Assembly (NCBI RefSeq): GCF_900099965.1
Contig: NZ_FNDJ01000004.1
Location: 1 to 64,000, forward strand
Source: Nonomuraea jiangxiensis
GTDB taxonomy: Bacteria; Actinomycetota; Actinomycetes; Streptosporangiales; Streptosporangiaceae
Reading direction: 5' to 3'
Length of the DNA: 64,000 nucleotides
Shown here piece after piece: positions 4,980-26,025 of the stretch. Numbering within the stretch: position 1 is the first letter of the stretch; the number at the start of each line of letters is the position of its first letter. The notes beneath the pieces were generated by a model. It was not told where the DNA came from, ran no database searches, and saw only the letters and a program-made list of their open reading frames with translations. A program made the translations under genes and the position numbers.

Positions 4980-5225
4980 TCAGTAATTACGCCTGACGTG
5001 GATGGCCCAGCCGCCCTCGGGCAGCTCGTACGACCCCACATGCCGATGTGACTTCAGCCTGCACCACGCCGGCACGTCCGTGTAGGCCGCCGGGTCGTCG
5101 GCCAGCACGGCCACGACGGCGTTCAGCGGGACGAAGTTGATCTGCTCGGCGAGCATGATGATCGGGATCGGGCACTTCTTGCCGAGCGCGTCGATCGTCA
5201 AAGCCGGCTGGGTAACCTCGGTCAT
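4980..5225 (-). CDS. TusA-like sulfur carrier protein
   Basis: An 81-residue member of the TusA/SirA/YeeD family. The CPIPIIML segment contains the CPxP motif whose cysteine accepts persulfide sulfur. The start codon overlaps the stop of the cysteine desulfurase upstream (ATGA), so the two are translationally coupled. The likely role is to receive sulfur from that desulfurase and pass it to thiolation or cofactor pathways; the final acceptor is unknown. Confidence 0.9.
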   Translation of the reverse strand: MTEVTQPALTIDALGKKCPIPIIMLAEQINFVPLNAVVAVLADDPAAYTDVPAWCRLKSHRHVGSYELPEGGWAIHVRRNY

Positions 5226-6364
5226 GCGACTCCTGCGTCCTGGCGGATGCGGCGCACCAGCTCGGGCAGCACGGCGAGAAACCTGTCGACCTCGGCCGCG
5301 GACGTGCCCCTGGGCAGCGACACCCGGACATTCCCATGGGTCAGCACGCCCATGGCTTCAAGAACGTGCGATGGACGAAGCGTACTAGCGGTGCACGAAC
5401 TTCCGGACGATACGGCGAATCCGGCCTTGTCCAGCTCCGTCAGCAGCGCCTCCCCGTCGACGTAGAGACACGAGAAGGTCACGATGTGCGGCGCTCGCTC
5501 GGCGGGATCGCCGATCACCTCCACGTCGGGGACGGTCTTCGGCACCATGTCGCGGATCCTGCCCACCAGCTCCGACAGCCTGGCCTGCTCCTGAGCCGCC
5601 TCCGCGGCCATCGCGCGCAGCGCCGCCGCCGCGGCGACGATGCCCGGCACGTTCTCGAACCCCGGCACCCGCCGCCGCTCCCGCTCGTCCTCCGGCAGGA
5701 ACGAGCGGAACCGCGTGCCCTTGCGCACCACCAGCACGCCCACCCCGGCCGGACCGCCCCACTTGTGGGCGCTGGCGGTCAGCACCGACCAGCCGGGCGG
5801 GATCGGCATGCGGCCGGCCGTCTGCGCCGCGTCCACCAGCAGCGGCACGCCGTGCGCCCGGCAGGCGGCGGCCGCCTCCGCCACCGGCTGCAGGGTGCCG
5901 ACCTCGTGGTTGGCGGTCTGCAGGCAGGCCAGCGCGGTCCCCGGCCGGGCCACCGCGGCGGCGAACCCGTCGAGATCCACCCGCCCGGTCAGATCCACGC
6001 CCACGGTTTCGACCGTGCCGCCGTCGCGTTCGTGCACGCCACCCGCGTGCAGGACGCTGGAGTGCTCCACGGCGCTGGTGACCAGATGGCGCCCGACCCT
6101 TCGCCTGCCGTGTAGGGTGCCGAGCACGCCGAGATGCACGGCCTGCGTGCCGGACGAGGTGAACGACACCTCGTCGGACCGCGCGCCGAGCGCCTCGGCC
6201 ACCTCCGTGCGGGCCTGTTCGAGCAGCAGGTGCGCACGGCGGGCCTGGCCGTAGAGTCTCGCGGGGTCGGCCCAGCCGACGTCGATCGCCGCCAGCAGCG
6301 CCTCGCGCGCCTGAGGGTGGAGCGGCTCGCTCGAAGCCGCGTCGAAATACGCCACGAGACTCAT
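5222..6364 (-). CDS. cysteine desulfurase (NifS/IscS family, class V aminotransferase fold)
   Basis: A PLP enzyme of 380 residues that removes sulfur from cysteine as an enzyme-bound persulfide. The PLP lysine lies in SAHKWGG (about residue 200) and the catalytic cysteine in SSGSSCTAS (about 325). The start is placed at the ATG beginning MSLVAYFDAA, the usual N-terminus of the family; a longer frame to 6466 adds residues unlike the family. It overlaps the TusA-like gene by four bases, so the sulfur donor and a carrier are made together. It is divergent from ctaC. Confidence 0.94.
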   Translation of the reverse strand: MSLVAYFDAASSEPLHPQAREALLAAIDVGWADPARLYGQARRAHLLLEQARTEVAEALGARSDEVSFTSSGTQAVHLGVLGTLHGRRRVGRHLVTSAVEHSSVLHAGGVHERDGGTVETVGVDLTGRVDLDGFAAAVARPGTALACLQTANHEVGTLQPVAEAAAACRAHGVPLLVDAAQTAGRMPIPPGWSVLTASAHKWGGPAGVGVLVVRKGTRFRSFLPEDERERRRVPGFENVPGIVAAAAALRAMAAEAAQEQARLSELVGRIRDMVPKTVPDVEVIGDPAERAPHIVTFSCLYVDGEALLTELDKAGFAVSSGSSCTASTLRPSHVLEAMGVLTHGNVRVSLPRGTSAAEVDRFLAVLPELVRRIRQDAGVA

Positions 6365-17339: not shown

Positions 17340-19112
17340 TCACCTCAAAGGTCGCCCCTCCTCCCGCCCACGTCGCTGGTCGAGGTGGCGATAGGCCAGG
17401 TCGATGCGGGCCTTGTGGCGGCCCGCGCCCCGGGCGGGCAGGCTCCACTGGCCGTCCACCTCCACCAGCCGCACCCCGGGGGACTCCAGCCAGCGCAGGA
17501 TGCACTCGGTCTCCTCGGCGCTGGCGGCGTGGACGGGACCGGGACCGGGGATGACAGCCTCGGCGGTGGCGGTCAGGGAGGCCACGAAGGGGGTCGGGTG
17601 GGTGCCCCTCCGCATGACCCCGGCCCCCGCGAGCCGGCCGTAGCGGACCACGTGGATGTCCCAGCCGCCGTCGAACGTCGGGCTGGCGGCCACCAGCTGC
17701 GGGATGCGCGTGATGGCGGTCAGCCGCTGCATGCGGGCCGCCGTGCGGACGAACGCGGCCAGCCGGTCACGATCGACGGAGGCCTCCTCGTAGCGCTGCT
17801 CGACCGACAGGCGCTCCATGCGGGCCGAGACGGCGCTGTAGACCATCGAGGCGTCGAGCGTCATCGCGCGCCGGGCGCTCTCCACGTGGACCGCGTATTC
17901 CTCCTGGCTCTCCCTGCCCTCGCACGGCGCGCCGCACCGGCCCATCTCGTGCAGCACGCAGGCCGCCCGCCGGGTGCGCAACGTGATCGGCTGGGTGCAC
18001 TGGCGCAGCGGGACCGCCTCGTGCAGCGCGATGCGGGCCTCGTCGGCCAGCCGGGCGTTGCCGAACGGGCCGAGGTAGGTGGCGCCGTCGTCCTTGAGCT
18101 CGCGGACGATCGACAGGCGCGGGAACGGCTCGACGGTGAGCTTGAGCCAGACGACCTTCTCGGGGAAGCGGGAACGGCGGTTGTAGCGGGGCTTGGCGCC
18201 GCCGATCAGGCGCAGCTCCCTGACCTCCGCCTCCAGGGCGGTCGAGCAGACGATGTGGCGCACCCGCTCGGCGATGCCGATCATCTCGCGGATGCGGGGG
18301 CGGGTCTCGGCGGCGGTGAAGTAGGAGCGCACCCGGTTGCGCAGGTTGGTGCTCTTGCCGATGTAGAGCACCTCGCCGCGCTCGTCCTCGAACAGGTAGA
18401 CCCCCGGCGCGTGCGGCACGGAGTCGGCCAGGTGGCGCTTGCGCTGCTGCTCCGGCGTGGGCGCGCGGACGAACGACTTGAGCTCCTCCAGCGTGTGCAC
18501 CTGGAACGAGCCGGCCCGCTCGATGAGCCCGTGCAGCACGTCGACGGTGGCCCTGGCGTCCTGCAGGGCGCGGTGGCACGGATCGACGGAGCTGCGGAAG
18601 AACCTCGCCAGCGTGGCGAGCTTGGCGTTGGGCGTCTCGTCGCGGGTCAGCACCCTGCGGGCCAGGTCGACGGTGTCGACGACCGGGTTGGCCGGCGGGG
18701 GATAGCCGTGGGCGGCGCAGGCCGCCTTGACGAAGCGGGTGTCGAAACCGGCGTTGTGGGCCACCAGGGTGGTGCCCCGGATGAACTCCAGGAAGCTCGG
18801 CAGCACCGCCTCGATCCGCGGCGCGGCCATCACCATGGCGTCGGTGATGCCGGTCAGCACGGAGATGAACGGCGGTATCGGCCCGCCGGGATCGACCAGC
18901 GTGGAGAACTCGCCGAGCACCTCGCCCGCCCGCACCTTGACCGCGCCGATCTCGGTGATCGCGTCGTCGGCGGGGGCGCCGCCGGTCGTCTCGAGGTCGA
19001 ACACGACGAACGTGACCTCGCTCAGCGGGGTGCCGAGCTCGTCGAGAGTGCCTTGAACCGGATCCACGAACCAAGACCATAGAGTCGGCGACCGACAGGA
19101 ACGAATCACCAT
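17340..19112 (-). CDS. DEDD exonuclease / UvrC-type GIY-YIG fusion protein
   Basis: A 590-residue two-part nuclease. The N-terminus is a DnaQ-type 3'-5' exonuclease with FDLETTG (about 39), HNAGFDTRF (about 118) and HRALQDARATVD (about 182). The middle holds a GIY-YIG domain (GVYLFEDERGEVLYIGKS, about 238), followed by a UvrC-like region with a Cys cluster (CVLHEMGRCGAPC, about 385). Family members are annotated as DEDD exonuclease domain proteins and presumed to act in DNA repair. The ATG at 19112 has AGGA nine bases upstream; a GTG at 19067 is an alternative. Confidence 0.9.
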   Translation of the reverse strand: MVIRSCRSPTLWSWFVDPVQGTLDELGTPLSEVTFVVFDLETTGGAPADDAITEIGAVKVRAGEVLGEFSTLVDPGGPIPPFISVLTGITDAMVMAAPRIEAVLPSFLEFIRGTTLVAHNAGFDTRFVKAACAAHGYPPPANPVVDTVDLARRVLTRDETPNAKLATLARFFRSSVDPCHRALQDARATVDVLHGLIERAGSFQVHTLEELKSFVRAPTPEQQRKRHLADSVPHAPGVYLFEDERGEVLYIGKSTNLRNRVRSYFTAAETRPRIREMIGIAERVRHIVCSTALEAEVRELRLIGGAKPRYNRRSRFPEKVVWLKLTVEPFPRLSIVRELKDDGATYLGPFGNARLADEARIALHEAVPLRQCTQPITLRTRRAACVLHEMGRCGAPCEGRESQEEYAVHVESARRAMTLDASMVYSAVSARMERLSVEQRYEEASVDRDRLAAFVRTAARMQRLTAITRIPQLVAASPTFDGGWDIHVVRYGRLAGAGVMRRGTHPTPFVASLTATAEAVIPGPGPVHAASAEETECILRWLESPGVRLVEVDGQWSLPARGAGRHKARIDLAYRHLDQRRGREEGRPLR

Positions 19113-19142: not shown

Positions 19143-20648
19143 ATGTCCGCGGGAAGACTTGCCGGCCGCTACTCCCTGCTCCGCCCTCTGGGCGCCGGCG
19201 GCATGGGAAAGGTGTGGCTGGCCAGGGATGAGATGCTTGTTCGCGAAGTCGCGGTCAAGGAGCTCACGCTGGCCGAGGGCATGTCCCCGAAGGAGCGGGC
19301 CGACTCGGTGACCAGGGCCGTGCGCGAGGCGCAGGCCACGGCGCGCCTGCGCCACCCCGGCATCGTGGCCCTGCACGACGTCGTGGTCGAGAACGACCGG
19401 CCGTGGCTGGTCATGGAGCTGCTGCGGGGCCGCACGCTCGCCGAGACGGTGAGCCGGTTCGGACCCATGCCGGCGGAGCATGCCGCCCGGATCGGCGCCG
19501 ACGTGCTCGAGGCGCTGATGGCCGCGCACGCCCAGGGCATGCAGCACCGCGACGTCAAGCCGGGCAACGTGTTCCTGACCGAGAGCGGCCGGGTCGTGCT
19601 CACCGACTTCGGCATCGCCCGCCAGGAGGGCCAGGCCACGCTCACCGAGCAGGGGCTGATGATCGGCTCGCCCGGGTTCATCGCGCCGGAGCGGCTGGAG
19701 GGCCAGCCCGGCGGCCCGGCCAGCGACCTGTGGTCGCTCGGCGCCACCCTCTACGTCGCGCTGGCGGGCGTGCCCGCCTACGAGGGGTCGGCGGCCCAGC
19801 GGGTGCGCGACACGCTGACCCAGCCGCCCCCGGTCCCGCCGGGGCCGCTCGGGCCGCTGGTGACGGCCATGATGGCGCAGCACCCCGCCGCCCGCCCCGA
19901 TCCGCGCCAGATCGTCGCCGCCTTACGGCAGGTCGCCGCGGGCGGTCAGGCCCCGCGGCTGCCGGCCGGCCACGACACGACCGTGCCCGGCAAGGTCAGG
20001 CGGCGCGGCAGGCTCACGCTCTGGATCGCCGCCGTGGCGGTGCTCGTCGTCGCGGCCGGCGTGACGGGCTTCGTCGTGCTGGGCAACAACCCGACCGGCG
20101 GGACCCCGGCGGCCTTCACCGCGCCCATGGACGTGTGCACGCTGATGAACCCGGAGGACCTCGGCGGCCTGCTGCGCACCCAGCGGCCGCCCAAGGGGCA
20201 GCTGAGCGCCGACGAGAAGGGCCCCACGTGCGGCTGGCCGATCGCCGAGACCGGCGTCGGCGTGCAGGTGCAGAAGGACTCCGACACCGTCGACCCGTGG
20301 TCGATGACCCCGGCGTCGGCCCGTACGCTCTTCCAGAACCAGAAGCGCTTCTGGGACAAGTACGACGAGCTGCAGTGGTCCTGGCCCGAGATCGGGGTCA
20401 AGGAGCAGCTGAAGGTCGAGCGCACCCCGGTGCGCCAGGTCGGCGGCGTCGCGGAGGAGGCGTTCGCCTTCGAGCTCAAGGGCCCCACGGGCCGGGTGGT
20501 CGCGGCCTACGTCTACTACCGGCTGGCCAACCTGGTGGTGTCCGCCGAGTTCGCCACCACGGCCGACAGGCCGACCGACGAGGACATCAAGCAGTCGGCG
20601 CTGAGAGTGGCCCAGACGAGTGAGCGGATGTTGCGCGATGCCGGGTGA
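19143..20648 (+). CDS. membrane Ser/Thr protein kinase with sensor ectodomain
   Basis: A Hanks-type kinase of 501 residues. The glycine loop GAGGMG (about 17-22), Lys in VAVKEL (about 36), HRDVKPGN (about 135), DFGIA (about 156) and APERLEG are all intact, so it should be active. One transmembrane segment (about 291-313) leads to an ectodomain of about 180 residues with a Cys pair (CTLMN ... CGW) and a GGVAEEAF motif. This resembles DUF3558-type lipoprotein domains. The same arrangement recurs in the next two genes. The start has no ribosome site, consistent with a leaderless message. Confidence 0.93.
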   Translation: MSAGRLAGRYSLLRPLGAGGMGKVWLARDEMLVREVAVKELTLAEGMSPKERADSVTRAVREAQATARLRHPGIVALHDVVVENDRPWLVMELLRGRTLAETVSRFGPMPAEHAARIGADVLEALMAAHAQGMQHRDVKPGNVFLTESGRVVLTDFGIARQEGQATLTEQGLMIGSPGFIAPERLEGQPGGPASDLWSLGATLYVALAGVPAYEGSAAQRVRDTLTQPPPVPPGPLGPLVTAMMAQHPAARPDPRQIVAALRQVAAGGQAPRLPAGHDTTVPGKVRRRGRLTLWIAAVAVLVVAAGVTGFVVLGNNPTGGTPAAFTAPMDVCTLMNPEDLGGLLRTQRPPKGQLSADEKGPTCGWPIAETGVGVQVQKDSDTVDPWSMTPASARTLFQNQKRFWDKYDELQWSWPEIGVKEQLKVERTPVRQVGGVAEEAFAFELKGPTGRVVAAYVYYRLANLVVSAEFATTADRPTDEDIKQSALRVAQTSERMLRDAG

Positions 20649-22098
20649 CCTCTACCAGCTGGCGGGCCGCTACCGGCTGATCGAGCGCCTCGGGCAGGGC
20701 GGCGCGGGCACGGTGTGGCGGGCGATCGACGAGCTGCTCGACCGGCAGGTGGCGGTCAAGCAGGTACGCGTGCCCGAAGGGCTCAACCCCCACGAACGTG
20801 CGCAGTTCACCGACCGGGCCATCCACGAGGCCAGGTCCGCCGGCCGGCTCCGCGACCCCGCCATCGTGCTCGTGCACGACGTCGTCCTTGAGGGCGCCCA
20901 GCCGTGGATCATCATGGACCTGGTCACCGGCCGCTCGCTCGACAAGGTGATCAAGGAGCAGGGGCCGCTGCCCCCGGCGTTCGTGGCCGCGGTCGGCCTG
21001 CGCGTGCTGTCGGCGCTGGAGGTCGCGCACGCGCATGGCATGCTGCACCAGGACGTCAAGCCGGCCAACATCCTGCTCGATCACGACGGCTCGGCCATGC
21101 TGACCGACTTCGGCATCGCCGTCTCCATGGGCGGGCACGACGCGAGGTTCGCCGGCGGGGGATCGCTCGGCTACATGGCCCCCGAGCGGCTCAACGAGCA
21201 GCCCTCGGGACCGGAGTCCGACCTGTGGTCGCTGGGCGCCAGCCTCTACACGGCCGTGGAGGGCCGCGCGCCGTTCGAGCGGGACCTGCCCGCCGCGGTG
21301 GCGGCGGCGGTGCTGCTGCACGAGCCGCCGTTCCCGGCCAGGGCCGGCCGGGACCTCGGCGGCCTGCTGCTGGCCATGCTCGCCAAGCAGCCCGGTGCCC
21401 GCCCCACGGCGGCGCAGGTTCGCCAGGCGCTGGCCGCCATGACCGGCGGGGCCGGCCTGGCCGCCCACCAGGGCCGGGCGCCCCGGCGCCGCGGTCGCGG
21501 CCGGCTGCCGGCCGCCGCGCTCGCCGCCGTCCTGGCGGTGGGCGCGGGCGGCTGGTACGCCGCCGACGCGCTCAGCGCCGAGCCCTACCCGGGGACGTTC
21601 GTCCAGGCGCCCGACCCGTGCTCGCTCCTCAGCGACGCCCAGGCCGCCGAGCTGATGAAGGAGACCCCCGAACGCAGCCTCACCAGGCCGGGCGAGTGCC
21701 AGTGGCTGGTCCAGGGCACGGACCTGGCCCGCCGCCTCATCGTCCGAGCCTGGGCGGAGAAGCCCAGCGGCGACCTCGACGGCCCCGGGGTGGCGCAGCG
21801 GCGCTTCGCCAGCGAGCGGAGCAGCCGCAGCGCGTCGAAGGGCGAGGCCATGCGCGAGGCCCGCGGCCAGGTGCACGACGTCACGGGGGTCGGCGAGTCG
21901 GCGATCGTCCAGAACTCCTACCGCTTCTACCTCAACAGCACCGAAAGCGGCTCATCCGACAGCACGCTGCTCTTCCGGACGAGTAATCTGCTCTGCGAAG
22001 TGATCTGGCATCGCGAGGACGTGCCGGCCTCCGCCCCTTCGGACCAGAAGACGGCCGTCGCCGCCGGCCGGTTGGTCGCCGCGGCGTTGCCGAAGTGA
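20638..22098 (+). CDS. membrane Ser/Thr protein kinase, HQD variant
   Basis: A second Hanks-type kinase, 486 residues, overlapping the first by 11 bases and probably co-translated. The glycine loop GQGGAG, VAVKQ and DFGIA are present, but the catalytic loop reads HQDVKPAN (about 137): the Arg of HRD is Gln, so it is a non-RD kinase. One transmembrane segment (about 290-308) precedes an ectodomain with CSLLSDAQ ... CQW and GVGESAI, like its neighbours. Arg loss usually changes activation control rather than abolishing catalysis, because Asp and Lys remain. Confidence 0.92.
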   Translation: MPGDLYQLAGRYRLIERLGQGGAGTVWRAIDELLDRQVAVKQVRVPEGLNPHERAQFTDRAIHEARSAGRLRDPAIVLVHDVVLEGAQPWIIMDLVTGRSLDKVIKEQGPLPPAFVAAVGLRVLSALEVAHAHGMLHQDVKPANILLDHDGSAMLTDFGIAVSMGGHDARFAGGGSLGYMAPERLNEQPSGPESDLWSLGASLYTAVEGRAPFERDLPAAVAAAVLLHEPPFPARAGRDLGGLLLAMLAKQPGARPTAAQVRQALAAMTGGAGLAAHQGRAPRRRGRGRLPAAALAAVLAVGAGGWYAADALSAEPYPGTFVQAPDPCSLLSDAQAAELMKETPERSLTRPGECQWLVQGTDLARRLIVRAWAEKPSGDLDGPGVAQRRFASERSSRSASKGEAMREARGQVHDVTGVGESAIVQNSYRFYLNSTESGSSDSTLLFRTSNLLCEVIWHREDVPASAPSDQKTAVAAGRLVAAALPK

Positions 22099-22177
22099 TC
22101 GTCGCGGGGTGCAAGCGCCTTGCAAGCGATGTCACTAGCATCCTTCCCCGCAAGTCAGGGCAACCCCAGGAGTCTCC

Positions 22178-23782
22178 GTGAATCCCGGTAGCGAGTACCA
22201 GCCGCCTCCCACCCCCCACCAGGTGCCGGGCGGGCGGTTCGAGCCACCGATCGGGCCACCGGCCATGCCACCCGGCCGGCCGCCCGGCATGCCGCCGACC
22301 CCGCCGCCCACCCCGCCGCCCACCCCGCCGCCCACCATGCCGCAGATGCCGCCGCCCTGGCCGCCCCAGCCGCCCCCGCGGCCGGCCTGGCTGCTGCCCA
22401 CGCTGGCCGCCGCCCTGGTCGTGCTGGTCGCGGCGGGCGGCGTCGGCGCCTTCGTCGTCTACGACAACATGTCCCGCGGGACGGCGGTCGCGCAGCGGCC
22501 CGAGACGTCGAGGCCCGCGCCCGCCGCCGCCAAGGCCCCCGACGTGTGCGCCATGCTGCCCCGGGACCAGGTCGACCGGCTCGTGCCCGACGCGACCGTG
22601 AGCCGCTCCTCCAGGGACGACGGCGAGTACACCGTCACCTTCACCTGCAACTGGCAGAACCAGCGCATCTCGTTCGGCGAGTACTGGCGCTCCAGGGAGG
22701 TCGACGTCAGGGTCGAGCAGTGGAGGGGCGAGGGGGTCAAGACCGGCCGGTCCATGGCCCAGAACTCGTACGAGGTGGACTACCGCGGCGGCCAGTACGG
22801 CGCCACCGCCACGCCGTCGATGGAGCCGGACGAGAAACAGTACGTCTCCCCCGTCAAGGACATCCCGGGTGTGGGCGACAGCGCGTTCGCGCAGTACACG
22901 TGGAGACGCGACGGGAAGCTGTTGTGGTATTCCTTCGGCCAGGCGTTCGCCCGGGTCGGCGACATGACGATCAAGATCAAATATCAGGCGGGCCAGCAGC
23001 GCAAGGACGCCGAGATCCTGTCCAACGAGACCACGCAGTCCGTCACCGAGGCGAACGCCATCCGTGAGGTCTCCGCCCTGGCCGGCTATTTCGCCAAGGG
23101 GGTGGCCGCCTGGCAGGCCGAGAACCCCGGCGTGCTGGCCCAGCCGGAGACGTCGCGGGCCACGGTCACGCCGACCGTCCAGGCGACGCCCACGCCGACG
23201 GTCCTGGCCGCGTTCCCGGGCGACTGCGTGGCCGTGGGGGAGACGGCCACCCGGCTCGTGCCCGAGCCGACCACCCGCGCGCGGGGCAGCGAGGTCGGCG
23301 GCGACAACCAGACCGAGTGCCGCTGGCTCAACCGGGAGCTGCCCGGCGGGCCGGGCATGACGAAGATCCGCAGCGCTCTGATCACCGTTCACCGCTTCAC
23401 CAACCGGGCGGGCGACGCCGACGAGCCCGCGGCCAAGTCGTACTACGTCAGCGAGAACGGCGGCGCCAAGTCCACCGAGAGCTCCTCGATCGGCGGCATC
23501 ACCTGGGGCAAGCTGATCGACGTGGAGGGGCTGGGCGACCAGGCGTACCGGCAGTTCGTGCAGACCAGGCGTGGTGAGGTCTCCGCGTCCAGCGCCTCGG
23601 TGATCATGCGCAGGGGGCCGGTCGTCATCAGGGTCGACTACTCCGGCCACCAGCGGCCGGAGGATGAGCCGACCAACTCGCCCAAGGTCGAGTTCATGAC
23701 CGAGAAGGAAGCGATGGCCGGCGCGCTCAACCTGGCCAGGGCGTACCTGGCGGCGCTGGACAAGCAGCCGGTGGGCAGCTGA
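22178..23782 (+). CDS. proline-rich single-pass membrane protein with two kinase-type ectodomains
   Basis: A 534-residue protein. Residues 1-72 are a cytoplasmic Pro-rich tail with TPPP repeats (12-bp DNA units at about 22290-22340). One transmembrane segment (about 73-95) follows, then two tandem extracytoplasmic domains. Both repeat the pattern seen in the two kinases upstream: CAMLPRDQ ... CNW with GVGDSAF, and CVAVGETA ... CRW with GLGDQAY. There is no kinase domain. It could be a co-receptor or decoy for the same ligand. The GTG has AGGAG nearby, and a TAGCAT hexamer lies at about 22136. Confidence 0.8.
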   Translation: MNPGSEYQPPPTPHQVPGGRFEPPIGPPAMPPGRPPGMPPTPPPTPPPTPPPTMPQMPPPWPPQPPPRPAWLLPTLAAALVVLVAAGGVGAFVVYDNMSRGTAVAQRPETSRPAPAAAKAPDVCAMLPRDQVDRLVPDATVSRSSRDDGEYTVTFTCNWQNQRISFGEYWRSREVDVRVEQWRGEGVKTGRSMAQNSYEVDYRGGQYGATATPSMEPDEKQYVSPVKDIPGVGDSAFAQYTWRRDGKLLWYSFGQAFARVGDMTIKIKYQAGQQRKDAEILSNETTQSVTEANAIREVSALAGYFAKGVAAWQAENPGVLAQPETSRATVTPTVQATPTPTVLAAFPGDCVAVGETATRLVPEPTTRARGSEVGGDNQTECRWLNRELPGGPGMTKIRSALITVHRFTNRAGDADEPAAKSYYVSENGGAKSTESSSIGGITWGKLIDVEGLGDQAYRQFVQTRRGEVSASSASVIMRRGPVVIRVDYSGHQRPEDEPTNSPKVEFMTEKEAMAGALNLARAYLAALDKQPVGS

Positions 23783-23938: not shown

Positions 23939-25534
23939 TCACGCGGCTCTTTGCTTTTGCCGGACCAGGAAGGGCTCCAGCAGGCCGGGTACGGCGTGCG
24001 CGGCCAGCTCCAGTCCTTCACCGTGGCCCACGTCCACCACGTCATAGTGGCCCTTGCCGGCGGCGGTGGTGGCCGAGACGGTGAGCAGCCCGGAACGCCG
24101 CTGGAAGTACGACTCCGTGACCGTCCAGCCGGAGATGCCCCTGCGGTCGAGCGCTATCGTGCGCCGCACCAGCGCGCCGCTCCTGGAGATCAGGTGCCGC
24201 TCGCCCAGCGCGTGGCCGAGACTCCTGGCACTCGACACGGCGAGCCGGAGCCCGGCCACCAGGGCCAGCGCGGGCGCCAGCCACACCCAGGCGCGCCACG
24301 GCCACGGCAGCAGCCAGGTGGCCGTGCCCGCACCCGCGGCCAGCACCGCCGCCGTCACGACCGCCCGCACGAAGCGCCTGCGCCGCGCAGCGGCCGGATG
24401 CGTGAGCAGCACGGATTCGCCCAGCATGGAACCGGCAGGGTTGGAGTCGCCAGGTGCGGAGTCGCCAGGTGTGGAGTCGCCCGGGGCGGGGGAGTGCGTG
24501 CCCGCGATGTCGGCGGCGAGGCGCCCGGCCAGGGCGCGGGGGAGCGGCGGGGTGAGGGCGGCCACGTCCTCGGTCTCGTGCTCGGCGGCCTTGCCCAGCC
24601 CGGTGGCGATGGTCTTGACGCGGGCCCCGCCCGCCAGCCGCAGCAGCAGCGGCTCGCTGACCTCCACCCCGCGCAGCCGGCGCTCCTCCAGCGTCAATGA
24701 GCGGGTGGTCAGCAGGCCGCGGCGCAGCCGGAGGCGGCCGGGCTCGCGTTCCAGGCGGTAGCGGCCCCACGACTCGGCGAACAGCAGCCCGGCGCCGAGC
24801 GTGCCGACGACAATGTTCACCACCACCAGCAGCGGCACCGCGACCAGCGGCTGCGTCGTCACCCAGTCCCACAGGTCGGTGACCATCCGCCCGGCGAACC
24901 CCTTGAGCCCGAGCGGGCTGAGCACCTTGTAGAGCCCGGCGAGCGCCAGCGCCGTCCCGGTGAACGTCCACACCGACAGGGGCGCGTACCTGATCCACGA
25001 CCAGCGCAGCTCCGCCAGCGTCCCGTCCCGCCCCGCGGGCTCGGCGTCCTGGAGCAGCAGCGTGCGGCGCAGCGTCTCGGCCTCGTGCCTGGTCAGCCCG
25101 TCGAGGACGAGCTCGGTCCCGTCGCCGGCGTGCTCGCCGGTGCCCACCTTGGCCACGGCCAACCGGAACACCCGCAGCACCGGATCGGCCCGCAGGTCCA
25201 CACTGCGCACCCGTTCGCGCGGGATCGAGCGGTGCTGGCGGACGGTGATGCCCGAGCGCAGTTCGAGGCGTTCGGGGGTGAGCCGCCACCGGGTCGTACG
25301 GAGCTTGGCCGCGGTGTAACCGACCACCGCGGCGACGACCAGCACCGTGGCCCCCGCGCAGGCGGCCACGACGGCGCCGGCCGGCCAGTCGAGCCCCGTC
25401 AGGACGCGCACCAGCGCGATCACCGCGCCCACCGCGACCGGCACCGACTTGACCCCGTCGGCCCACAGACGCCGCCGGGACAGCGGCATCCAGACGGACA
25501 CGTCCTGCGTCAGCCGCGCGGCCGGGCCGTTCAC
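23939..25534 (-). CDS. YdbT-type membrane protein with bacterial PH domains
   Basis: A 531-residue membrane protein with three bPH2 (DUF304-type) domains separated by pairs of transmembrane helices, matching Bacillus YdbT. Examples are TTRWRLTPERLELRSG (about 90) and ERRLRGVEVSEP. The GTG at 25534 overlaps the stop of the next PH gene (GTGA); the much longer open frame upstream is antisense-like read-through. Between two domains lies a PGDS-type repeat from a 15-bp tandem array. YdbS/YdbT proteins have been linked to resistance to antimicrobial compounds; the role here is unproven. Confidence 0.85.
   Translation of the reverse strand: MNGPAARLTQDVSVWMPLSRRRLWADGVKSVPVAVGAVIALVRVLTGLDWPAGAVVAACAGATVLVVAAVVGYTAAKLRTTRWRLTPERLELRSGITVRQHRSIPRERVRSVDLRADPVLRVFRLAVAKVGTGEHAGDGTELVLDGLTRHEAETLRRTLLLQDAEPAGRDGTLAELRWSWIRYAPLSVWTFTGTALALAGLYKVLSPLGLKGFAGRMVTDLWDWVTTQPLVAVPLLVVVNIVVGTLGAGLLFAESWGRYRLEREPGRLRLRRGLLTTRSLTLEERRLRGVEVSEPLLLRLAGGARVKTIATGLGKAAEHETEDVAALTPPLPRALAGRLAADIAGTHSPAPGDSTPGDSAPGDSNPAGSMLGESVLLTHPAAARRRRFVRAVVTAAVLAAGAGTATWLLPWPWRAWVWLAPALALVAGLRLAVSSARSLGHALGERHLISRSGALVRRTIALDRRGISGWTVTESYFQRRSGLLTVSATTAAGKGHYDVVDVGHGEGLELAAHAVPGLLEPFLVRQKQRAA
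24443..24487 (-). repeat. 15-bp tandem repeat inside the YdbT-type gene
   Basis: Three consecutive 15-bp units (GGAGTCGCCAGGTGC and variants) begin at 24443, 24458 and 24473. On the coding strand they encode repeated PGDS-like pentapeptides in a linker between PH domains. The period is the same as in the array at the window start. Confidence 0.85.
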
Positions 25535-26025
25535 GTCGCGTCCCCGGGGGTCGCGTGGGTGATGGCGATCAGTCGTTCGGCCAGCTCGGCGGCCACCTCG
25601 TGGTCCAGCGCCTCGATCTTGACCGCCCCGGCGGACGAGGCCGTGGTGACCGTGACGGCCGCCAGCCCGAACAGCCGCTGCACCGGACCGCGCGCGGTGT
25701 CGACCCGCTGGATCCGCGACATCGGCGCCACCTGCCAGGTGTGCGTCAGAATTCCCTTGCGCGTGTAGACCGCCTGGTCCGTGACCTCCCACCGCTCCAC
25801 CCGGTAGGACGCCCGCGGCGCCACCAGCGCCACCGCGAGGCAGCCCACGGCGAACACCACCACCACCGCCCCGAGCCAGACCGGCCGCTCGGTGAGGGTC
25901 CAGTACGCCGCCACCGCCGCGGCGGCCACCGGAACCATGAGGATGAGCCACTGCACCGTCCACCACGCGACCGCCCGGGGATCGGCCTGGTGACGCGGCG
26001 GGCGCAGCGTCGTCGTCGCTCTCAC
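25531..26025 (-). CDS. YdbS-type membrane protein with one bacterial PH domain
   Basis: A 164-residue protein with two transmembrane helices (about 22-42 and 50-70) and one bPH2 domain (YRVERWEVTDQAVYTRKGIL through VTVTTASSAG). It pairs with the YdbT-type gene, overlapping it by GTGA, and itself starts in a GTGA overlap with the small membrane gene upstream. The two PH proteins probably form one membrane complex. Confidence 0.88.
   Translation of the reverse strand: MRATTTLRPPRHQADPRAVAWWTVQWLILMVPVAAAAVAAYWTLTERPVWLGAVVVVFAVGCLAVALVAPRASYRVERWEVTDQAVYTRKGILTHTWQVAPMSRIQRVDTARGPVQRLFGLAAVTVTTASSAGAVKIEALDHEVAAELAERLIAITHATPGDAT

Follow-up and report, generated by a model that had tools for sequence, protein, structure and literature searches.

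Two receptor-like kinases and a kinase-less membrane protein sharing one PknH-sensor-like ectodomain in Nonomuraea jiangxiensis: a candidate hetero-oligomeric receptor

The closest described counterpart of the genes discussed here is PknH of Mycobacterium tuberculosis, in which a kinase domain is followed by a transmembrane (TM) segment and an ectodomain. PknH is described as having a proline-rich region adjoining the TM segment and, in certain lineages, as being present as a pair, pknH1 and pknH2 (PMC7785237), and its ligand is given as not known in a 2012 review (PMC3601408). A sensor domain like that of PknH is also found in kinase-less M. tuberculosis proteins, one of them secreted and four of them lipoproteins (Rv3705c, LpqQ, LprH, LppH and LpqA; PMC4118811). 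Here we describe a set of three genes, denoted K1, K2 and P3, located at positions 19,143 to 23,782 of a 64,000-nucleotide (nt) stretch of the Nonomuraea jiangxiensis genome (assembly GCF_900099965.1, contig NZ_FNDJ01000004.1, positions 1 to 64,000; hereafter the window). The set encodes two membrane Ser/Thr kinases and a kinase-less membrane protein, which together carry four related ectodomains (E1 in K1, E2 in K2, E3a and E3b in P3). The host genome is 11.8 Mb in size and, to our knowledge, Nonomuraea is not known as a pathogen. The switching of bacterial receptor kinases by their ectodomains is poorly known, and the question of hetero-oligomers and non-catalytic co-receptors becomes testable in a small gene set such as this one, in which two kinases and a kinase-less protein have one sensor fold in common.

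Tandem Ser/Thr kinase genes are also found in Streptomyces coelicolor, where SCO4775-4779 form a five-kinase cluster (PkaH, SCO4776, PkaD, PkaI and PkaJ). The spore defect seen when this cluster is deleted exceeds that of a strain lacking only pkaI, and PkaI self-interacts and also interacts with PkaD; in contrast with the tandem arrangement, which K1 and K2 share, a point of difference is that the SCO genes are transcribed separately (PMC4416010).

K1 and K2 have the domain order of PknH, and E1 and E3b are predicted to have the fold of its sensor domain. The ectodomains of the set nevertheless find no sequence-family match to PknH in Pfam or in profile searches of the PDB, and each carries one conserved cysteine pair, whereas the PknH sensor has two disulfides (PMC3601408, PMC4118811). 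P3, which features no kinase domain, is not a PknH-type member. The mycobacterial pknH1 and pknH2 flank tbd2, the gene of a transporter of the forkhead-associated/ATP-binding cassette (FHA-ABC) type, and not a kinase-less double-ectodomain gene (PMC7785237). P3 in turn differs from the kinase-less mycobacterial proteins in having two domains, a TM segment, a cytoplasmic tail and a position directly behind two kinases. No title describing a K1-K2-P3 set appeared in the literature searches made, for which alone this absence is claimed, and a search joining TiME (a fold neighbour, see below) and PknH found nothing.

On balance, and with modest confidence, we take K1, K2 and P3 to be subunits of one hetero-oligomeric receptor, in which P3 would be a non-catalytic co-receptor. 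The elements of the set are as follows.

K1, 19143..20648, + strand: membrane Ser/Thr kinase of the RD (Arg-Asp) type, with one TM segment and a C-terminal ectodomain.
E1, ectodomain of K1, 20085..20645, + strand: predicted PknH-sensor-like fold with one conserved Cys pair (AlphaFold2 model).
K2, 20638..22098, + strand: membrane Ser/Thr kinase, non-RD (HQD), without an activation-loop L-T-E.
E2, ectodomain of K2, 21580..22095, + strand: placed by profile homology.
P3, 22178..23782, + strand: kinase-less single-TM protein with two ectodomains.
N-terminal Pro-rich tail of P3, 22178..22399, + strand: 74 residues, 49% Pro, taken as cytoplasmic.
TM segment of P3, 22400..22465, + strand: from hydropathy.
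E3a, first ectodomain of P3, 22466..23134, + strand: from profile comparison and AlphaFold2 model.
E3b, second ectodomain of P3, 23198..23779, + strand: from profile comparison and AlphaFold2 model.

The three genes are consecutive on the + strand in the order K1, K2, P3. The ATG of K2 (at 20638) overlaps the end of K1 by 11 nt, and P3 begins 79 nt past the K2 stop with a GTG, preceded by AGGAG 5 nt upstream. The terminator scan found no terminator between the three genes, and one terminator-like match within P3, with 1.3 expected by chance; a promoter scan found no sigma-70-like promoter. A Pfam scan gives kinase domains in K1 and K2, no kinase match in P3, and sub-cut-off matches to DUF3558 in all three proteins. 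The model of PASTA kinases (PknB/Stk1, NF033483) scores 216 and 210.5 bits through the kinase part only, against a cut-off of 450, and no PASTA domain was matched in the Pfam scan of the window proteins. The preliminary description of this DNA, made by a reader of the sequence alone, had proposed two membrane Ser/Thr kinases and a kinase-less membrane protein with two ectodomains and a Pro-rich tail in place of a kinase, and the reading frames and domain matches agree with it. The tail of P3 is presumably cytoplasmic, given the TM segment and the basic residues that adjoin it in most orthologues.

The relatedness of the four ectodomains, which had likewise been proposed, is seen at several levels. 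Profiles of the four domains were built from genus alignments (24 rows for K1, 23 for K2 and 25 for P3), and all six pairs match each other in hhalign, with E values of 1.5e-13 (E1-E2), 5.4e-13 (E2-E3a), 6.7e-12 (E3a-E3b), 9.7e-10 (E2-E3b), 5.2e-7 (E1-E3a) and 2.4e-6 (E1-E3b, over 67 columns only). Controls with reversed profiles and an unrelated kinase stretch, run without the -norealign switch that was used for the domain pairs, give E values of 0.12 or worse. A profile of K1-type ectodomains without K2 or P3 rows (A5) has three hits in the own genome at E <= 1e-5 (17 of the 159 first-look candidates were scored), and these are the ectodomains of K1, P3 and K2. Of the motifs pointed out in the preliminary description, the first Cys and the two fixed residues of C-x-W (Cys and Trp) are invariant in the genus alignments of all four domains, and the G-x-G/A-[ED]-x-A element is conserved largely, not fully. 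The second Cys of the single conserved pair lies within C-x-W, and the pair is likely to form a disulfide bond; E2 of the window has a third, non-conserved Cys.

DUF3558 (PF12079), the family with which a comparison had been suggested, is the commonest Pfam match of the domain alignments at E <= 5 (35 of 39 K1, 15 of 36 P3 and 18 of 23 K2 sequences). In the window it scores 23.7 bits for E1, 17.0 for E2 and 20.2 for the first P3 domain, all under the cut-off of 34.1; the genome scan gave P3 23.1 bits. The Pfam search at E <= 5 reports no DUF3558 match in the second P3 domain. The closest solved fold is that of PknH. Pfam includes a PknH family, which is not among the matches of the 98 sequences (39 + 36 + 23) at E <= 5. 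With the A5 and A4 profiles as queries against PDB sequences, no PknH chain came up at E <= 10, and no useful sequence link to PDB entries was found in the searches. Another kinase of the own genome (L115, 6749-8254, - strand) has a DUF3558 ectodomain above the Pfam cut-off; its ectodomain matches the four profiles weakly, at best with E1 (E 4.7e-4, probability 32.5).

AlphaFold2 single-chain models cover E1, E3a and E3b. The E1 model has a predicted local distance difference test score (pLDDT) of 93.9 and a predicted template modelling score (pTM) of 0.90. The order of elements in E3b is H-H-E-E-E-H-E-E-E-E-H (H, helix; E, strand); E3a follows this order too, although its first helix is very short, and E1 features one strand more. 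Structure comparison gives the M. tuberculosis PknH sensor domain (4esq) as the closest solved fold, with Z 14.1, root-mean-square deviation 2.9 and 156 aligned residues for E1, and Z 14.2, 3.0 and 147 for E3b (model residues 251-434). The best structural match of E3a (model residues 22-215) is 4tmd, with Z 11.2. In Foldseek, 4esq is the top hit for E1 (E 1.1e-4); for the two-domain P3 model it comes fourth, after aromatase/cyclase chains of low probability. The one shared design put forward in the preliminary description is therefore borne out in the predicted folds of E1, E3a and E3b, and for E2 by profile homology.

The next fold neighbour is TiME (Z 13.5 and 13.4), and PsbP, Mog1 and LpqN follow at Z 7.3-8.6 (LpqN at 7.7 and 8.0), possibly just a common arrangement, as the comparison tool itself warns. 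By analogy with TiME and LpqN, the latter of which is linked in its PDB title to cell envelope biogenesis, P3 might bind or transfer an envelope lipid or precursor, with the kinases sensing the loaded state. Loci L133-L139, from two other families, contain kinase-less open reading frames (ORFs) that match the E1, E2, E3a or E3b profile, and at six of these seven loci two such ORFs are neighbours with N-termini that by eye are lipoprotein-like, an arrangement in keeping with a lipid carrier. These genomes belong mostly to one family, which we take to be Streptomyces-like; the E1-type matches read there are kinase-less, unlike the SCO4775-4779 kinases. However, a fold does not give a function, a Z near 8 is open to the reservation just mentioned, and P3 has a TM segment and a cytoplasmic tail, not a lipobox, so that we regard a lipid carrier as quite improbable.

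In a tree of 120 ectodomains (midpoint root; three long-branch rows are of unsure place), K1 and K2 ectodomains cluster by gene position, while the first and second P3 domains each form one clade (P3a, 100/100; P3b, 99/99). Since each is a single clade, the tree places the two P3 domains before the split of these genera, and it indicates long separate constraint on each of the four ectodomains. P3a, P3b and the single-domain protein of locus L120 form one group (99/93), the inner order of which the tree leaves open, and internal duplication would be the simplest reading of the P3 pair. An origin of P3 by fusion of the K1 and K2 ectodomains is not supported, as this group stands apart from the kinase ectodomains. 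The L120 protein (5147-6328, - strand, in Nonomuraea genome G011) has a TM segment, a single ectodomain and a short Pro-rich tail but no kinase domain, and is encoded divergently from a second kinase cluster.

The stem branches of P3a and P3b are long (1.29 and 0.93 changes per column), which bears on whether P3 acts as a decoy, an option raised in the preliminary description, or as a ligand sink, competing for ligand or forming dead-end heterodimers and so damping the signal. Two ectodomains without a kinase would suit such a role, and paralogous clusters retain dead kinases (see below); the long stems fit a specialised part better than a mimic, which is a weak argument, and we consider a decoy unlikely.

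The association of the three genes was followed in a survey of 150 genomes of the family, from 68 genera, with P3 called at E <= 1e-20 and the E1-type ectodomain at E <= 1e-15. P3 is found in 38 genomes and 14 genera, and the named relatives carrying it are Nonomuraea. The E1-type ectodomain is found in 57 genomes, including all 38 with P3; in 36 of these the two share contig and strand, with the ectodomain 1,547-3,807 bp upstream of P3, and in two (G066 and G072) they are split between contigs, both lying close to a contig end. Within the genus, P3 is present in 23 of 25 genomes, the own included, and of 25 Nonomuraea loci 24 have K1 along with P3, and 23 have an intact K2; the contig of one locus (L059) starts at P3. 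This recurrence in related genera suggests that P3 is a standing partner of the two kinases.

The Pro-rich tail of P3 is much less constant. In 18 of the 25 Nonomuraea P3s the tail opens with a motif NPGS-[EQ] and its first 20 or so residues can be recognised; in these it measures 38-291 residues with 27-49% Pro, and 15 of the 18 have a Thr at residues 7-20. Among 11 P3s of other genera, with starts judged by eye, seven tails are of about 9-35 residues and four are longer; in further genera, where starts are not fixed, an open low-complexity stretch of at least 300 residues precedes the TM segment. A T-Q-P close to the membrane is seen by eye in several P3s of other genera, and no tail sequence common across genera was seen among the P3s read. 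The preliminary description named a scaffold as one possible role of P3. These features bear on a reading of this kind, in which P3 is a cytoplasmic scaffold or substrate, with K1 and K2 phosphorylating the tail, the tail recruiting partners and the ectodomains merely co-localising. The conserved start, its Thr and the T-Q-P are compatible with such a role within their respective groups, but the variability of the tail outside the genus weakens it, and we judge it improbable. As length and sequence vary between genera, the tail is unlikely to be the core function of P3, and the lack of conservation across genera points to selection for the ectodomain pair.

Within the genus, the kinase domains of K1 and K2 differ. 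K1 features HRD, DFG, VAVK and an activation-loop L-T-E in the window, and in the genus alignment HRD and [LI]-T-[EQ] are present in 24 of 24. In K2 the HRD is replaced by HQD or HHD in 23 of 23, and [LI]-T-[EQ] occurs in none of the 21 (of 23) sequences in which the activation segment was located by pattern. VA-x-K, the catalytic Asp and DFG are kept in both. In K2 orthologues of other genera, HRD is found in 17 of 20 and HQD or HHD in three (L083, L146 and L148). Judged by these residues, K1 resembles a regulated RD kinase, and K2 of the Nonomuraea clade resembles a non-RD kinase.

A second type of cluster was encountered in nine loci of the family, read with four consecutive genes bearing the same type of ectodomain. 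In seven of these (L084, L087-L091 and L124), HRD and DFG are both retained in genes 1 and 3, whereas DFG is missing from genes 2 and 4 (gene 2 of L084 retains HRD), so that by motif active and dead kinases alternate, beginning with an active one. The VA-x-K Lys, in six aligned clusters, is kept in gene 1 in five (Arg in L089) and in gene 3 in all six. L092 and L093 are arranged differently, and L120 has three kinase genes and then the contig end. Traces of the kinase C-lobe are left in gene 2 of six of the seven clusters (in L091 as a 44.6-bit match only), and gene 2 of L089 (6362-7984, + strand) gives no kinase or Pfam match in its cytoplasmic part, which is Pro-rich; as in P3, a Pro-rich tail stands where the kinase would be. 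Judging from these remnants and the L089 gene, kinase-less members of this receptor family arose repeatedly and persist in place. Decay of a kinase as the source of P3 itself was considered and set aside: neither the window P3 nor any of 11 P3s from other genera gave a kinase match, the same holds for 12 further loci, and a kinase origin could be argued solely by analogy with gene 2 of L089. In their decayed catalytic motifs, genes 2 and 4 resemble the actinobacterial pseudokinase families ActPs1-3, many members of which adjoin a TM segment (PMC12599244); the main text of that review has no occurrence of extracellular, tandem, gene neighborhood or Streptosporang.

Taken together, the linkage, the separate constraint on each ectodomain, the non-RD character of K2 and the pattern of dead kinases in the sister clusters suggest hetero-oligomeric receptors with non-catalytic subunits. 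In such a receptor, the four PknH-sensor-like ectodomains would assemble, or alter an assembly, when they encounter a ligand, either a cell-envelope component or a small molecule. K1, with its RD motif and conserved activation-loop Thr, would be the regulated enzyme; K2, without the Thr motif and, in this genus, without the HRD Arg, may be a constitutively competent or K1-driven partner. P3 would add two ectodomains and no kinase, setting ligand specificity and stoichiometry as a co-receptor. The suggestion of a receptor set with a co-receptor as third member, made from the window alone, is strengthened by the linkage over genera and by the paralogous clusters with dead-kinase members.

Several observations weigh against a receptor of K1, K2 and P3. 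An E1-type ectodomain occurs without P3 (none at E <= 1e-20) in 19 of its 57 genomes, so that such kinases can do without P3, and 6 of the 38 genomes with P3 have two tandem P3 genes. Two same-genus genomes without P3 were found, one of which is 63% complete and one in 760 contigs, and in one locus (L058) the K2 frame is broken while those of K1 and P3 are intact. The two-ectodomain model of P3 (pLDDT 87.9, pTM 0.51) indicates that each domain is individually well modelled and that the mutual placement of E3a and E3b is unsure. Linkage, finally, can mean co-regulation without contact.

The genes flanking the set in the window recur in Nonomuraea. In 20 loci from elsewhere in the family, read with at most about 6 kb of flank and all outside the genus, the only matches to them are histidine kinase/response regulator-like genes in L094, which is without P3, and the neighbouring genes were rejected as members of the system on this ground. 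Divergent from K1 (17340-19109, - strand) lies a gene for an RNase_T exonuclease domain joined to a GIY-YIG domain, which adjoins K1 in Nonomuraea loci too. On the other side (23939-26025, - strand), a small ORF lies next to the gene of a protein that contains three bPH_2 stretches; a match to the bPH_2 protein is found downstream of P3 in 10 of 11 P3 loci of relatives.

For the family as a whole, a broader reading can be put forward tentatively: that multi-subunit receptor Ser/Thr kinases may be built by duplication of a single PknH-like ectodomain, the catalytic and the non-catalytic positions being fixed, and that the kinase domains may decay repeatedly, from active through a partial C-lobe to a Pro-rich tail only, while ectodomain and TM segment are kept. 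The second cluster type would then provide natural replicates of the receptor design. If true, these bacteria would possess dedicated co-receptors, with a logic comparable to that of eukaryotic receptor sets with dead-kinase members.

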